Source of the DNA: Armatimonadaceae bacterium
Lineage (GTDB): Bacteria; Armatimonadota; Armatimonadia; Armatimonadales; Armatimonadaceae
Length of the DNA stretch: 9,165 nucleotides
NCBI GenBank assembly: GCA_030446525.1
Contig: JAUJNC010000175.1
Coordinates: 1-9,165, forward strand
Direction of reading: 5' to 3'
Shown here in pieces: positions 2,449 to 7,137 of this stretch. A program made the translations under genes and the position numbers. Within the stretch, counting starts at the first letter, position 1, and each line of letters starts with the position of its first letter. The notes under the pieces were generated by a model, which was not told the origin of the DNA, did no database searches, and saw only the letters and a list, made by a program, of their open reading frames with translations.

Positions 2449-3252
2449 TCAATCGTCGGCGCAGGTAAAGGCGGTCATGATCGGCTGGCCGTTGATCGTG
2501 GTGATCTTGGCCAGTTCGCTCAGTCGGGACGCCTTGGCGTGGCCGTCGCAGTACACGGCATTGGTGGTCTCCTGATGCCGTGCGACCAGAGCGCCGCGGT
2601 TGCCCGGCGCAGCCAGACGCATTGGTTTGACCGAGGTATTGACGGTGGGGTTGTTCGTCGGGTCCGGCCATCCGATTTTGGGTCCCCAGCCAGCAGCGGC
2701 ATTGCTGCGCGTATCGCCGTCGGCCGCCCAGAGCGTCGTGGCAGGCGCCTGGATCGATGCCAAGCTCTGGGCGTACGGAGGGCCTTGCGGCGTGCCCTGA
2801 TAGCTGTAATAAGCGGAGTTGCCGGAGTAGCTCCCATAATTGGTGCTGGTCTGTCCCGTGGCAATGTTCTTGTGATAGACGTATTTCGCACCGCTGTCGC
2901 TCGGGCAGGTAAATACCTGCTCGTTTTTCATATAGGGATAGATCGCGTCCATCCACTTGTAGTTGATGGTGCTGTTAGAGGGGTTATCGTTGGGGTAACG
3001 GGTGGAGGGCAGAGTTTCATCGTAGTCCTGGGCGTACATCATCAGCCCGGTGCCGATCTGCTTCACGTTGTTCAGACAGGCGCTCTGCCGTGCCTTCTCT
3101 CTTGCCTGGGCGAAGACGGGGAACAAGATAGCAGCGAGGATAGCTATTATGGCAATCACCACGAGCAGCTCGATGAGAGTGAAGGCCGCCCCGGCCGGGG
3201 GTGCGCCAGGCGCGTTCGTGAAGGCGCCGTGGCTTCTTGAGTTGCGGGACAT
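2449..3252 (-). CDS. Prepilin-type N-terminal methylation / H-X9-DG (DUF1559-like) protein 1
   Basis: This is a 267-residue type II/IV pseudopilin-like protein, counted from the ATG at 3252. A 23-residue leader rich in Ala, Gly and Pro ends in GAA just before FTLIELLVV, with Glu at +5 of the mature protein. Prepilin peptidase should cleave at A23|F24, though Gly is usual at that position. A long hydrophobic helix (24-45) is followed by AQDYDE and a soluble domain. Near the end, [16 protein letters not shown] gives a perfect H-X9-DG motif (H226, D236, G237). An ATG two codons upstream (3258) abuts the GGAGGT Shine-Dalgarno directly, whereas ATG 3252 lies seven bases from GGAGG and is preferred. 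Such proteins are exported and assembled by, or act with, type IV pilus or type II secretion-like machinery, none of which is in the window. The gene leads a probable two-gene operon with the oxidoreductase. Confidence 0.95.
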
Positions 3253-3258
3253 CCCCAT

Positions 3259-3264
3259 ACCTCC
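3259..3264 (-). promoter_or_regulatory. Shine-Dalgarno of prepilin 1
   Basis: GGAGGT on the minus strand touches the first in-frame ATG (3258) with no spacer. It is correctly spaced, seven bases after GGAGG, for the second ATG at 3252. This places translation start at 3252. Confidence 0.7.
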
Positions 3265-3319
3265 ATGGATAAGGTCGGTCCGGAGAAACGAGCGATTGCT
3301 ACCATTCTATCATATAAGC

Positions 3320-3367
3320 TCATAAAAAGGGGTTGACTCCGTTCTTCTGCGGCGGTTTTGTTTCCAT
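3320..3367 (-). CDS. Possible 15-residue small ORF between lacI and prepilin 1
   Basis: A minus-strand ORF of 15 codons plus TGA encodes METKPPQKNGVNPFL. It is preceded by GGGAGGA, followed by AGC and then the ATG (upstream positions 3368-3377), which is a strong Shine-Dalgarno at near-ideal spacing. It starts 64 bp after the lacI stop and ends 67 bp before the prepilin start. Either a leader peptide in the transcript that runs into the prepilin gene or a chance Shine-Dalgarno match would explain it. The peptide has no signal sequence or recognisable motif. The translation signal is the only evidence. Confidence 0.3.
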   Translation of the reverse strand: METKPPQKNGVNPFL

Positions 3368-3405
3368 GCTTCCTCCCGTTGATGTAGCTTATCTTACACT
3401 CCATC

Positions 3406-3433
3406 AAAGCGGAGGAAGGCCAATTACCGCTTT
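3406..3433 (-). terminator. Weak hairpin at the end of lacI
   Basis: AAAGCGG and CCGCTTT form a 7-bp stem (3406-3412 with 3427-3433) with a 14-base loop, overlapping the lacI stop codon. No T-run follows, so it may slow ribosomes or protect the transcript end rather than terminate. Read-through from lacI into the prepilin/oxidoreductase unit is possible. Confidence 0.3.
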
Positions 3434-4460
3434 ACGCGGATTCGCGCAGGGTCAGCGTGCAGGCGAGCGTTCGTATCTGCGGTCGCCAGTCGCCCGGGTT
3501 TTCCAAACGCTCGATCAGGCGCTCAACGCCGCTGCGGCCGATCTGCTCCAGCGGGCAGTGCACGCTGGTGAGCGGCGGGTCCAGCGCGTCGCAAAGCACG
3601 GGGCCGTCATCGAAGCCCACCAGGGCCACATCCCCGGGGACGCTCAGGCCGGCGCCCCGCAGCGAGCGCAGCACGCCCGCCGCCAGGCTGTCGTTGGTCG
3701 CGAACACCGCGTCGGCGCGGACCGGGCGCGACAGGAACTCGCGCCCCGCCGCCTCGCCGCATTCTGCCGTGAAGGCGCGTGTCGTCACGACCAGCTCCTC
3801 GCGCGGGGTCACACCGAACTCCGCGTGCGCGCGGCGGTACCCCGCCAGCCGGGCGCGCCCCGAATTCAGGCGCGGGGGCCCTACGAACGCCACGGCGCGC
3901 CGGCCCTGCTCCAACAGGTGGCGCGTCGCCAGATAGCCCCCCTGCTCCTGGTCCACCAGGAAACAGTCCGCCTCGACGCCTTCCACGGGGTCGTGATAGG
4001 TGGTGACGAAGGGCAGGCCCGTCGCGGCCAGGCCCGTCACGATGCCGTTGAGCCGGCCGCTGAGGCTGCCCGCGGTCTCGAAAAGGCAGACGATGCCGTC
4101 CATGCGCCGCGCCGCCATGGCGCGCTGGGCCAGCAGCGCCCGGTCGATCTGGGACCGGTAGGCCGAGAGCATGATCGTGTAGCCGCGCTGCTGGGCGGCC
4201 TCCTCCACGCCGGCAAGCTGCTGGGCGGTGATGTGCGAGCCCACCTCGGGCACCAGCACGCCCAGCATGGTGCCGCGCCCGGTGACCAGGCCGCGCGCCA
4301 GCAGGTTGGAGGAGTATCCCAGCTCCTGTGCCGCCGCCAGCACCCGCTCTCGCGTCTCCTGGCTGACGGGCTTGGGCCCGCCGTTGAGGGCGTAGGAGGC
4401 GGTGGACCAGGCCACCCCGGCCCGGCGCGCTACCTGCTTGAGTGTGGCATTTGCCGCCAT
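3432..4460 (-). CDS. LacI/GalR-family transcriptional repressor
   Basis: This gene encodes a 342-residue regulator of normal family length. Residues 6-26 form the LacI helix-turn-helix (TLKQVARRAGVAWSTASYALN). Trp18, Ser19 and Tyr23 sit at the base-reading positions where E. coli LacI has Tyr, Gln and Arg. The hinge helix is NLLARGL (52-58), with the Leu54-Ala55 pair that in this family inserts into the central CG step of the operator. Residues 62 to about 330 form the periplasmic-binding-protein-like sensor domain, including FDDGPVLCDALDPPLTSVHCP near the end, so the effector is probably a sugar. The start at 4460 has a weak AAAGGA 11 bases upstream, and the next in-frame region already encodes the DNA-binding domain. 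A promoter and one operator-like palindrome directly upstream predict self-repression. Two further palindromes control the divergent prepilin gene. Confidence 0.96.
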   Translation of the reverse strand: MAANATLKQVARRAGVAWSTASYALNGGPKPVSQETRERVLAAAQELGYSSNLLARGLVTGRGTMLGVLVPEVGSHITAQQLAGVEEAAQQRGYTIMLSAYRSQIDRALLAQRAMAARRMDGIVCLFETAGSLSGRLNGIVTGLAATGLPFVTTYHDPVEGVEADCFLVDQEQGGYLATRHLLEQGRRAVAFVGPPRLNSGRARLAGYRRAHAEFGVTPREELVVTTRAFTAECGEAAGREFLSRPVRADAVFATNDSLAAGVLRSLRGAGLSVPGDVALVGFDDGPVLCDALDPPLTSVHCPLEQIGRSGVERLIERLENPGDWRPQIRTLACTLTLRESA

Positions 4461-4509
4461 TCGCTGTTGCGTCCTTTACTCCACCACCGTGTGACGCTTC
4501 GCCCGTTTG

Positions 4510-4523
4510 TCGAAGCGTTTCGA
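4510..4523. promoter_or_regulatory. LacI-type operator in the lacI promoter (site C)
   Basis: TCGAAGCGTTTCGA is a 14-bp near-palindrome with central CG and two mismatched positions. It matches the two sites upstream of the prepilin gene (consensus TCGMARCGTTKCGA). It lies ten bases downstream of the lacI -10 box, at about +4 to +17 of the expected transcript, where a bound repressor would block initiation or escape. It also shares an 8-bp inverted repeat with ACGCTTCG at 4494-4501. Confidence 0.7.
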
Positions 4524-4533
4524 GTCGTTTTCA

Positions 4534-4562
4534 AGTTTACACCAGTTCCCCACCCGTGTCAA
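4534..4562 (-). promoter_or_regulatory. Sigma-70-type promoter of lacI
   Basis: On the minus strand a perfect -35 box TTGACA (4557-4562) is followed by exactly 17 bases and a -10 box TAAACT (4534-4539, four of six consensus bases). Transcription should begin near 4527, giving a leader of about 67 bases that contains operator site C. Confidence 0.65.
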
Positions 4563-4749
4563 GGACACCTATCGCCGGCCAGGGTTCATTCCGTGTCGGC
4601 GTGAAGATCCCGTCCGATGCCGTGATTTTCAAACCAGCTGTCCGCGTTAATTGTGGCAGAGGCGGGCACCGTGCGCTCTCCGGCCCTTTTGTTTTACCTG
4701 CCCCGGCGTGTAGACAGCGTCACCAGAGATTGCTCCACCACGCGTGTTG

Positions 4750-4797
4750 AAAATAATTTTAACCTCGCAACGTTTCGACAAAATTTCATGGTATCAT
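4750..4797 (+). promoter_or_regulatory. Extended -10 promoter of prepilin 2, with UP-like AT tract
   Basis: An extended -10 element, TG-G-TATCAT (4789-4797), is present on the plus strand. No good -35 box occurs at 17 bases, which is tolerated by extended -10 promoters. The AT palindrome AAAATAATTTT (4750-4760) would sit at about -54 to -44, the position of an UP element. Transcription should begin near 4804, 85 bases before the prepilin ATG. Operator sites A and B bracket the -10 element. Confidence 0.5.
4765..4778. promoter_or_regulatory. LacI-type operator upstream of prepilin 2 promoter (site A)
   Basis: TCGCAACGTTTCGA is a near-palindrome centred on AACGTT with two mismatched positions. 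It is the exact reverse complement of site B. It falls over the -35 region of the predicted prepilin promoter. Confidence 0.75.
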
Positions 4798-4812
4798 AAT
4801 GGTCAACAGACA

Positions 4813-4826
4813 TCGAAACGTTGCGA
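4813..4826. promoter_or_regulatory. LacI-type operator downstream of prepilin 2 promoter (site B)
   Basis: TCGAAACGTTGCGA is the exact reverse complement of site A, at about +10 to +23 of the predicted transcript. The centres of sites A and B are 48 bp apart, with the extended -10 element between them. The 14-bp identity over a 34-bp gap makes chance unlikely. Central AACGTT is also seen in known LacI-family operators such as that of PurR. Confidence 0.75.
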
Positions 4827-4877
4827 ATCTGTCCGACAACGTAATGATGTGCTGATTTGTGTCAAGGTGAACGTGCC

Positions 4878-4883
4878 AGGAGG
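4878..4883 (+). promoter_or_regulatory. Shine-Dalgarno of prepilin 2
   Basis: AGGAGG followed by five bases and ATG 4889 is an ideal ribosome binding site, which fixes the start of prepilin 2. Confidence 0.85.
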
Positions 4884-4888
4884 GTACT

Positions 4889-5713
4889 ATGGATCGATTC
4901 CGGAATCGTTTTCCCCGGGGGGGCACAACCGACGGCTTTACGCTGATCGAGCTTCTCGTCGTGATCGCTATCATTGCGATCCTTGCAGCCATCCTTTTCC
5001 CCGTATTCGCCCAGGCTAGGGCAAAGGCCCGCCAGACCGCCTGCCTGTCCAATCTCAAACAGGTCGGCACCGGCATCATGATGTATGCTCAGGACTACGA
5101 TGAGATGCTGCCCGGAAACTCCTTTACCGCCCCGAATAACTCCGCCGGCGATGCGGGACTGACCAACGCAGCCGGTACACAGAATCCGCGTGGCTTCATG
5201 GAGCCCGAACCACAGGTTGGGCGCAACTGGGCGCGCGACATTCAGCCCTACGTCAAAAACCTCCAGGTATACGTCTGTCCAGATACGGAGCCGCGCGGCG
5301 CGGGACAAGTGTACGCCGAGACTAGGGTCCCAGGCGGTGGGAACGTTTCCTATCTGCTGAATGGACTCGTTTCCTCTCAGGCGATGGCGGTGATCCCGAA
5401 TACGGCGGACATCGTCTTCATGCATGAGTACAGGTACATTAGCCGCGTTTCTCAGGTGCGTCCCTACCCGAGCGGCACCATGAACGGGAAGCAGAGGTAC
5501 ATCTCGTTCAACAACGCCTTGTACGACATCGAACACAACGAGGGAGCTAACCTGTTATACTGCGACGGACATGCTAAGTGGAAGAAGAAGACGGCAATCA
5601 TGTTCAAGGAGTTCGGCGCAGACACGACGAGAGAGTCGAACCCCAACCGTACCTTCTCATTCGATAACCCCGGCCCTGAGGGTAATCCGTTAGGATTTAC
5701 TGCGGTGTGGTGA
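4889..5713 (+). CDS. Prepilin-type N-terminal methylation / H-X9-DG (DUF1559-like) protein 2
   Basis: This gene encodes a 274-residue pseudopilin-like protein. The leader is short and basic ([16 protein letters not shown]), with a classic prepilin peptidase site G16|F17 and Glu21 at +5. A hydrophobic helix (17 to about 38) and AQDYDE follow. The soluble domain ends with [17 protein letters not shown], a perfect H-X9-DG motif (H216, D226, G227). About 47 residues follow the motif. Its helix region is identical to that of prepilin 1 over 28 residues, although 17 of those 28 codons differ. The start has AGGAGG at five bases. The gene is divergent from the LacI-family regulator and has two operator-like palindromes around its promoter, so it is probably repressed until a sugar-type effector appears. 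It appears to be transcribed alone, since strong hairpins follow its stop codon. Its role in filament formation, secretion or surface binding cannot be decided from sequence. Confidence 0.96.
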
Positions 5714-5736
5714 TTCCCGCGTAGGATACGCGGGAA
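5714..5736 (+). terminator. Perfect 10-bp hairpin directly after prepilin 2
   Basis: TTCCCGCGTA-GGA-TACGCGGGAA begins at the base after the TGA stop. The 10-bp stem with a 3-base loop is very stable. No T-run follows, so it may act with the next hairpin or protect the 3' end of the transcript. Confidence 0.5.
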
Positions 5737-5783
5737 GCCGATACCGACAACATCCCCCGCCGCAGGGCAGGGAGCGCAAACAG

Positions 5784-5813
5784 AACCGGGGTGGCACATT
5801 GCCCACCCCGGTT
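5784..5813. terminator. Probable bidirectional intrinsic terminator
   Basis: AACCGGGGTGG (5784-5794) and CCACCCCGGTT (5803-5813) form a perfect 11-bp GC-rich stem with an 8-base loop. It is followed by a short T-rich run on the plus strand (TTTCCGTT), and on the minus strand by TCTGTTTG. It lies between the convergent prepilin 2 gene and the decayed glycosidase gene, so it could end transcripts from both sides. Confidence 0.6.
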
Positions 5814-5820
5814 TCCGTTC

Positions 5821-5843: not shown

Positions 5844-5911
5844 AGCGCCGTTAGCGTCGCCACCGGAAGCTATACTCCCGGTCGTCCTCTGCTTTCTCGG
5901 CTCGGGCCCCA

Positions 5912-6920
5912 CTAAAGCGGATGGGCCTGTAGTCTTTGGATGGCCTGTCGGACCTGCTCGATGGCGGCCACGTGCGTCTCGCGACGCCTTTCCAGGGTGG
6001 GAGCCCAGGGGGCGGTCAGGAACCCCAGCAGACGCTCCGGGGCGATGCGCTCCAAACAGAACTGCACCGTGTCGCCGAAGTTGGTGTCGTTCGCCCAGTT
6101 GCCGGTGGGCGTACCTGGTCATACCGGTGCGCCTCCAGCGTGACATAGGCCAGGTGCCCCTTCTTGCCTGGCGGGCTTCGCTCGGCCCCGGCCGCGGGAG
6201 TCATGTCAAAGCTCCTCGCCGTAGTACCAGTTGCTCTGCAGCGCGGACCGGGGCATCTTCTCCAGGAACACCTTCGCTGGTGCCAGAGGCGGTCCGACCA
6301 GACCCAGGGCGCGAGCCGGCTTCCTCCACTTCCTCAAAATAGAACAGCAGGTCGTGCCACCAGAGCCTCGTACTGGCGCACCAGAGAGGAAGGGAAGTAC
6401 AGGTGCGCGTGCGTCTCCTCGTCCATGCCCAGGTGGAAGAAGCGCGTATCGAACAGGAGACGCACTCCTGGATCAGGGTTCCGGCACACCTCGTAGTACC
6501 CAAGCGTGGACACCATGCGGGAGTAGTCTTTGAGCCAGGCGTCGTGGGCGGCGGAGAAGTTGAGCTTGGGGATGGGCTCGATGCCCATCTGGCGCATCCT
6601 GGCGGTTCCTCGTCGCGCAGGCGCCGGGTGCCTCAGGCGTTCTGGACGGCGATCTCGGGGTGGCTGTCGTACTCGACGGCGTCTCCCAGGTCGAGCACCA
6701 CCATGTTCATGCCGGCCGCCTGCATCTGGAGCAGAAGGCCGTCCAGAGCGAGTCATCGAAGGAAGATACGGCTGGGCGTGGTTGCTGCTGCGGGGCCTCT
6801 CGTTGAAATAATGGCCACTGCGCGACATGTTATAGCTGAGGTGGATCAGGTTTGCCCAGACTGCTTCTCGTAGGGGGTGTTTTTCAGAGGCGAGTTGTAG
6901 ATCGTCGGTGCGTTATCCAT
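5912..6920 (-). pseudogene. Decayed GH20-like glycosidase (TIM-barrel), many frameshifts
   Basis: Pieces in all three minus-strand frames line up in order as one protein of about 335 residues. It starts MDNAPTIYNSPLKNTPY (ATG 6918-6920), followed by EAVWANLIHLSYNM, then LLLQMQAAGMNMVVLDLGD. Next come MGIEPIPKLNFSAAHDAWL, FFHLGMDEETHAH (6415-6435 covers HLGMDEE), LWWHDLLFYFEEVEEAG, then APWVWSDRLWH. The last pieces are FLEKMPRSALQSNWYYGEEL, YVTLEAHRYDQV and NWANDTNFGDTVQFCLERIA, ending at TAG 5912-5914. The HxGxDE element matches the catalytic Asp-Glu motif of GH20 hexosaminidases. I count about ten frame changes plus in-frame stops at 6633-6635 and 6206-6208, so no functional enzyme can be made. 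The family is recognised from its pattern; the exact substrate is unknown. It lies downstream of the DUF4838 gene on the same strand and may once have worked with it. Consensus errors in the assembly are the alternative to true decay. Confidence 0.85.
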
Positions 6921-7095
6921 GGTTTTCGTACTTTCCGTGCTTGCTGCACATCGGGCCGCGTTCCTGCGCGAACAAACTCCGTCCTGCCAGACCGCGTCCC
7001 GTGGTCCAGGTGCTGGGGTAGAACTCAAGCCCCTGGCTCTCTACCAGACTCCGATTGGTTCGCACGCGTTGCGGAGCCGTGCTCCTCGTTCCGGC

Positions 7096-7115
7096 GCGTG
7101 AGGTGGATCTCACGC
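7096..7115 (-). repeat. Short hairpin after the DUF4838 gene
   Basis: GCGTGAG and CTCACGC form a 7-bp stem with a 6-base loop, 22 bp past the DUF4838 stop on the minus strand. No T-run follows, so a terminator role is only possible. The rest of 6921-7137 holds no gene that I recognise. Confidence 0.3.
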
Positions 7116-7137
7116 CCGTCAAACGGCGCGCCGCCAT

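Follow-up and report, generated by a model that had tools for sequence, protein, structure and literature searches.

Three predicted LacI-type operators between a regulator gene and a divergent DUF1559 pseudopilin gene

Gene content of the locus and the three candidate operators

The question raised by this locus is whether a LacI-family regulator represses both its own gene and a divergently transcribed pseudopilin gene from three similar sites in the gap between them. The window, by which we mean the whole analysed stretch of 9,165 bases, encodes proteins whose named closest relatives are mostly from Armatimonadota. Reading frames, domain searches and alignments place a LacI-family regulator of 342 aa on the minus strand (3432..4460), and reading frames with domain searches place a DUF1559/H-X9-DG pseudopilin of 274 aa, divergent from lacI, on the plus strand (4889..5713), leaving a gap of 428 bp. 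Downstream of lacI on the minus strand lie a second DUF1559 prepilin (2449..3258; reading frame and domain search) and, 65 bp beyond it, an FAD-dependent oxidoreductase with a signal-peptide-like start (PF12831; 632..2383; domain search). A DUF4838 protein, also recognized by domain search, is encoded on the minus strand from 7138 to the window end. Adjoining its gene, the minus-strand frames of 5850-7137 seem to be broken by frameshifts, as a decayed gene or sequencing errors would leave them; three pieces within 5850-6828 had no Pfam match at E up to 1. An Rfam search matched no RNA family.

The predicted operators are three 14-mers in this gap, found by pattern match and assessed with shuffles. 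Operator 1, TCGAAGCGTTTCGA (4510..4523), lies just downstream of the lacI promoter, operator 2, TCGCAACGTTTCGA (4765..4778), covers the proposed prepilin -35 region, and operator 3, TCGAAACGTTGCGA (4813..4826), stands just past the inferred prepilin start. All three match the consensus TCGMARCGTTKCGA with 0 mismatches, are palindromic in 6 of 7 pairs and have CG at the centre; operators 2 and 3 are exact reverse complements of each other. Operators 1 and 2 are 255 bp apart and operators 2 and 3 have a spacing of 48 bp; positions 4506-4524 and 4764-4782 form an inverted pair of 19 nt with 89% match. Also in this region, on the plus strand, TTACTCCACCAC (4476-4487) and TTGCTCCACCAC (4730-4741) start 34 and 35 bp ahead of operators 1 and 2, respectively; this pair is perhaps a relic of duplication, or chance.

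Single and loose matches occur near chance level, with 7 matches to the consensus at up to 3 mismatches in the window (shuffle mean 5.55) and 9 CG-centred near-palindromes (shuffle mean 6.1), so that the evidential weight rests on the mutual likeness of the three sites. This was assessed with dinucleotide shuffles, in which we counted triples of non-overlapping CG-centred near-palindromes that fit into 428 bp and differ from each other by no more than 2 mismatches. Triples this alike appeared in 0 of 3,000 shuffles of the window and in 0 of 30,000 shuffles of the 428-bp intergenic region; two identical sites by themselves appeared in 2 of 3,000 window shuffles, and where overlapping sites were permitted such triples arose in 5 of 2,000. 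A sequence-only reading had described three near-palindromic, CG-centred sites of one consensus: its coordinates proved exact, and the three sites are alike beyond chance.

The regulator, the pseudopilin and their promoters

The adjacent regulator belongs to the LacI/GalR family, with 54.4 bits for the LacI HTH (PF00356, cut-off 27) and 115.1 bits for the periplasmic-binding-protein-like effector domain (PF13377, cut-off 26.5). Its Leu58 aligns to the hinge Leu of PurR and is invariant in 16 aligned proteins, the window protein among them, which bears out the expectation of a family member with an intact hinge Leu. The CG-centred palindromic site near its own promoter that is expected for this family is present, as read from the sequence only. 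Eleven relatives (P0002-P0012) are 62-84% identical to the regulator over 99-100% of its length. In the recognition helix, A17, S19-T20-A21-S22-Y23-A24 and N26 are invariant in 16 close proteins including the window's, and the window helix is found in 0 of the six most distant members of a 23-protein alignment. Among relatives with solved structures the ribose repressor ranked first, and PurR was also among the nearest. The regulator reached no NCBIfam equivalog cut-off, and its scores fell far short of those of the three candidates tried (RbsR, 177.7 vs 382; PurR, 152.9 vs 501; CcpA, 121.6 vs 442.35), so that by this test the regulator is none of the three.

A sigma-70 scan of 4400-4950 returned a single match (shuffle mean 0.3), the lacI promoter TTGACA-17-TAAACT on the minus strand (4534..4562). 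Operator 1 begins 10 bp downstream of the -10 of this promoter, in agreement with the earlier placement of the operator at the lacI start site. The same scan gave no consensus match for the prepilin promoter, a weaker one that is proposed as an extended -10 read by eye, TGG-TATCAT (4789..4797, plus strand). From it we infer a prepilin start near 4804; operator 2 would then cover the -35 region and operator 3 would span about +10 to +23. Relative to this start the two sites stand at about -32 and +16. The suggestion that they bracket the prepilin promoter agrees with this placement, the two sites flanking the proposed extended -10.

Behind the prepilin gene, two strong hairpins are predicted on the plus strand (5709..5820; folding z -3.80 and -4.25) in a region with no match to a T-run terminator. 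They are possibly the 3' end of the prepilin transcript, which may then carry this gene (4889..5713) alone. In the stretch from lacI to the second prepilin (3150-3520) we found no promoter match and no minus-strand terminator match, which suggests that lacI, the second prepilin and the oxidoreductase may form one transcript under operator 1.

By its profile matches, the product of the divergent gene is a DUF1559/H-X9-DG pseudopilin. It scores above the cut-offs for the prepilin cleavage/methylation motif (PF07963, 30.5 bits vs 21.2; TIGR02532, 32.7 vs 16.3), for DUF1559 (PF07596, 36.4 vs 23.3, covering residues 42-123 only) and for the H-X9-DG C-terminal motif (TIGR04294, 23.5 vs 19). The predicted model has a long helix at 19-69 and is otherwise beta-rich (mean pLDDT 71.5); a fold search of the PDB gave no significant match. 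Right behind the start codon, at 4895-4908, CGATTCCGGAATCG forms a perfect CG-centred palindrome unrelated to the operator motif.

Candidate operators and lacI-prepilin pairs in Verrucomicrobiota

A search of genome contigs for an orthologous locus gave one weak match, in an Opitutae genome of the Verrucomicrobiota, and 288 genomes of this phylum served for comparison. Viral contigs searched with the LacI protein and with an alignment gave no match. A search with the prepilin alignment found 212 stretches of viral contigs encoding DUF1559 prepilin relatives, which are either virus genes or bacterial contamination, and by HMM lacI occurred in 0 of the 80 loci kept (L002-L081). A plasmid search gave 2,748 records with general LacI relatives (12 listed, 36-37% identity) and no prepilin match.

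The window pattern was searched for in these genomes irrespective of gene content. Four of them (about 21 Mb) contain one site, in G288, located 78 bp before a lacI gene with a prepilin gene directly behind it. The full set of 288 contains 59 distinct sites in 48 genomes; strand matches number 69 vs 39 for the reversed pattern, so most of the sites are chance. Sites with the AGCGTT core of operator 1 number 49, and lacI was near 0 of the 24 examined (about 1.5 kb on each side). The AACGTT-core sites number 10, all of which were examined, and 2 have lacI directly downstream. The palindrome TCGAAACGTTTCGA occurs at three places in the 288 genomes, two of them just upstream of lacI (G262 and G288); the roughly 5 kb around the third (G067) are free of lacI, and so is the neighbourhood of the other perfect palindrome, TCGCAACGTTGCGA (G257). 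In G262, where the contig ends inside lacI, the site is 8 or 23 bp before the gene depending on the choice of start codon, and it follows a promoter read by eye, TTGACT/TATATT, with nearly the geometry of the window lacI promoter.

The recognition helices of these two regulators were ranked by HMM alignment among 110 distinct LacI helices from the fetched loci. The G262 helix, AISTASLALN, came first with 8 of 10 residues identical to AWSTASYALN of the window, and the G288 helix, SISTVSCALN, with 6 of 10, is one of five tied as second-best. Two lacI genes chosen solely by their operator thus rank among the nearest by helix; of the independent evidence, this speaks most strongly for the assignment of the operators, with two cases behind it.

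Operator-like sites were also found at lacI-prepilin loci with other motifs. The gap of a divergent lacI/DUF1559 pair in G007 (L185) holds CATTAACGTTAAAG and TTTTAACGTTAAAG, and the pattern derived from them, WTTAACGTTAAAG, has no third match in this 4.8-Mb genome (reversed pattern, 1). At another G007 locus (L195), ATTGTTCGTACAAT stands twice upstream of a lacI-prepilin pair; these are its sole exact copies in the genome, where one copy with 1 mismatch occurs elsewhere. Exact operator copies are thus confined to their own locus at both. In the other divergent pair of G007 (L192), the 350 bp preceding lacI contain no CG-centred near-palindrome, and over the lacI-prepilin loci of that genome at least one such site is present within this distance at 11 of 21 and none at 10, counted without shuffles. 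Among the 17 loci that have a prepilin no further than 1.5 kb away, L185 alone showed alike sites upstream of both genes; the test is biased towards the divergent layout, since the upstream stretches of divergent pairs overlap.

The pairing of the two genes was then counted without regard to operators. A regulator match is present in 226 of the 288 genomes (seven to nine matches per genome listed at most), and the first 81 places listed, with one overlapping place left out, gave 80 regions of up to 19.7 kb. Prepilin genes number 13 in 153 flank-kb at less than 1 kb from lacI, 6 in 146 at 1-2 kb and 24 in 894 at 2-9 kb; in 52 of the 80 regions prepilin genes are absent altogether. Within 500 bp of lacI there are 12 prepilins: 10 follow lacI in its own direction, 1 lies upstream in that direction and 1 is divergent. 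A CG-centred near-palindrome is found upstream of lacI in 45 of the 80 regions, as compared with 22.5% of shuffles.

Two genomes, both picked since they already showed pairs, were analyzed in full. In G007, a lacI HTH gene is followed by a co-directional prepilin in at least 24 of 58 cases (random positions, mean 0.7 and largest 5 in 2,000 trials). The corresponding count in G239 is at least 18 of 40, against a mean of 0.7 and a largest value of 5 among 34 shifts of the positions by 4-20 kb, a control that is lowered where shifts leave the contig. Divergent pairs among the matches listed number 2 of 58 in G007 (random 0.8) and 0 of 40 in G239. The LacI-prepilin pairing is therefore strongly recurrent in both genomes; the enriched layout is lacI followed directly by a prepilin gene, and the divergent layout occurs at about chance level. 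Each of the two genomes also has at least 150 prepilin-motif matches (150 scored of 198 candidates in G007 and of 235 in G239), an extreme expansion.

The surroundings of four loci, chosen by hand and not sampled, were scanned for domains, and several of the neighbours had no match or one below cut-off. At L116 (9272-18456), lacI and prepilin genes are followed, all in one direction, by those of a pectinesterase, a pectic acid lyase, a pectinesterase/GDSL protein and a GH43 protein, a candidate pectin-use operon including a pilin. At L142, lacI and a DUF1559 prepilin precede two proteins with no Pfam match and then a DUF4838 protein and an SSF transporter, DUF4838 being common to this locus and the window. 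The L192 prepilin carries the prepilin motif, has no DUF1559 match and adjoins a GH42 protein; around the L185 prepilin only sub-threshold matches were obtained on the prepilin's strand.

Proposed regulation, alternatives and known systems

We consider it probable that the window encodes an autoregulated local LacI-type repressor which has the DUF1559 pseudopilin as a direct target and is induced by a sugar. A dimer of the LacI-family protein would bind operator 1 and shut its own promoter, and on operators 2 and 3, at both sides of the prepilin promoter, it would block transcription of the pseudopilin gene. A small molecule, most likely a glycan-derived sugar or oligosaccharide, would bind the periplasmic-binding-protein-like domain and lift repression, so that production of the pseudopilin would follow the presence of its glycan. 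Read-through from the lacI promoter may place the second prepilin and the oxidoreductase under this control as well, and the regulon probably serves glycan use. The sequence-only reading had predicted self-repression with effector-controlled expression of the pseudopilin, and it is supported: self-repression combined with repression of the divergent prepilin fits the geometry of the sites best, and the L185 pair and the link of TCGAAACGTTTCGA to lacI point the same way.

Other readings of the same sites have to be weighed. It is improbable, in our judgement, that another LacI paralogue or a global regulator binds them and that the adjacent lacI is merely one of its targets. Genomes of this kind may well carry dozens of LacI paralogues, as the 58 and 40 HTHs in two Verrucomicrobiota genomes illustrate, and some could share a motif; yet operator 1 sits on lacI's own promoter, the motif elsewhere adjoins two lacI genes with a similar helix, and two G007 operators have exact matches only at their own lacI, even if one of them has the 1-mismatch copy. 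A regulator that controls only itself and its downstream genes, with operators 2 and 3 as looping auxiliaries and the divergent prepilin incidental, would accord with the prevalence of the co-directional layout elsewhere, with the lack of enrichment of the divergent one, and with the loop-sized 255 bp between operators 1 and 2. We nevertheless take this to be unlikely, since looping alone, we reason, needs no such close flanking of the proposed prepilin promoter as operators 2 and 3 provide, and since L185 has a similar layout in another phylum.

The sign of the control could also differ, the regulator activating the prepilin gene or, in the manner of PurR, repressing it together with a corepressor. 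In favour of this, PurR belongs to the nearest relatives of solved structure and the prepilin -35 is poor, like those of activated promoters. Against it, positions of about -32 and +16 relative to the inferred start fit repression, the ribose repressor outranks PurR, and several related loci have glycan genes nearby; we give such control only a small chance in place of sugar induction. An origin of the palindromes by chance or as a mobile repeat is very improbable indeed: about six CG-centred near-palindromes can be expected per shuffled window, yet neither shuffle series produced triples this alike, and no repeat unit longer than the sites is common to all three. Sugar-inducible repression of lacI and the pseudopilin gene thus remains our preferred reading.

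A wider reading is possible, although we hold it to be doubtful: in Armatimonadota and Verrucomicrobiota a module of one LacI glycan sensor and one DUF1559 pseudopilin may be repeated, with substrate-specific pseudopilins swapped in. The swapped proteins would be subunits of filaments that capture glycans or guide secretion, according to the polysaccharide present. If true, this would give a role to the very large DUF1559 family and explain its many paralogues. The recurrence of pseudopilin and LacI genes, in some cases beside glycan-degrading genes, makes the idea testable, in that each pseudopilin should be induced by a glycan and serve its use. The predicted operators offer a direct handle, as any ligand found to release the repressor would identify the substrate.

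Literature on Planctomycetes provides the nearest comparison for the pseudopilin. For two planctomycetes, DUF1559 families that comprise 68 and 74 members and lack a settled function are described (PMC10632474, PMC2754498, available text), and the proteins are labelled there and in the available text of PMC4807772 as of unknown function or solute-binding. These DUF1559/H-X9-DG pseudopilins belong to the same Pfam family as the window prepilin, but differ in that the available text of the three papers (PMC2754498, PMC10632474, PMC4807772) draws no link to LacI. Planctomycetes are further reported to have pili-like fibres that bind dextran (PMC5394234), and one planctomycete to have type IV pili that help adhesion to chitin (PMC11131199), both as given in the text available. 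The former represent a polysaccharide-binding surface fibre, a possible role for such a pseudopilin; the available text of PMC5394234 leaves the fibre protein unnamed and does not contain the word 'pilin', and the link to DUF1559 is ours.

In the open-access literature searched, no work mentions both DUF1559 and LacI, and LacI and the prepilin domain name co-occur only in one work, apparently on another subject. The earlier remark that the pairing was not known as described accordingly agrees with our finding no report of it there. The mechanism itself is ordinary; it is the pseudopilin target and the recurrence in another phylum that were not found described in this literature.

Among known regulators, RbsR, PurR and CcpA have the domain order and the hinge Leu in common with the window regulator and differ from it by equivalog cut-offs which the window protein does not reach. 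The survey of LacI regulons by Ravcheev et al. 2014 (PMC4052901) draws on 7 phyla, which include neither Armatimonadota nor Verrucomicrobiota, and the word 'pilin' is absent from its main text. According to the available text of this survey, nearly 90% of the LacI-family regulators it studied act as local sugar regulators, 72% are autoregulated, and most have CG-centred palindromes. The local sugar regulons described there resemble the predicted one in their CG-centred even palindromes, in autoregulation and in having sometimes several sites per intergenic region, while the 48-bp spacing of operators 2 and 3 falls outside the spacing peaks named in that text (13, 22 and 32 bp). The direct target also sets the locus apart: here it is predicted to be a pseudopilin rather than a catabolic enzyme or a transporter.
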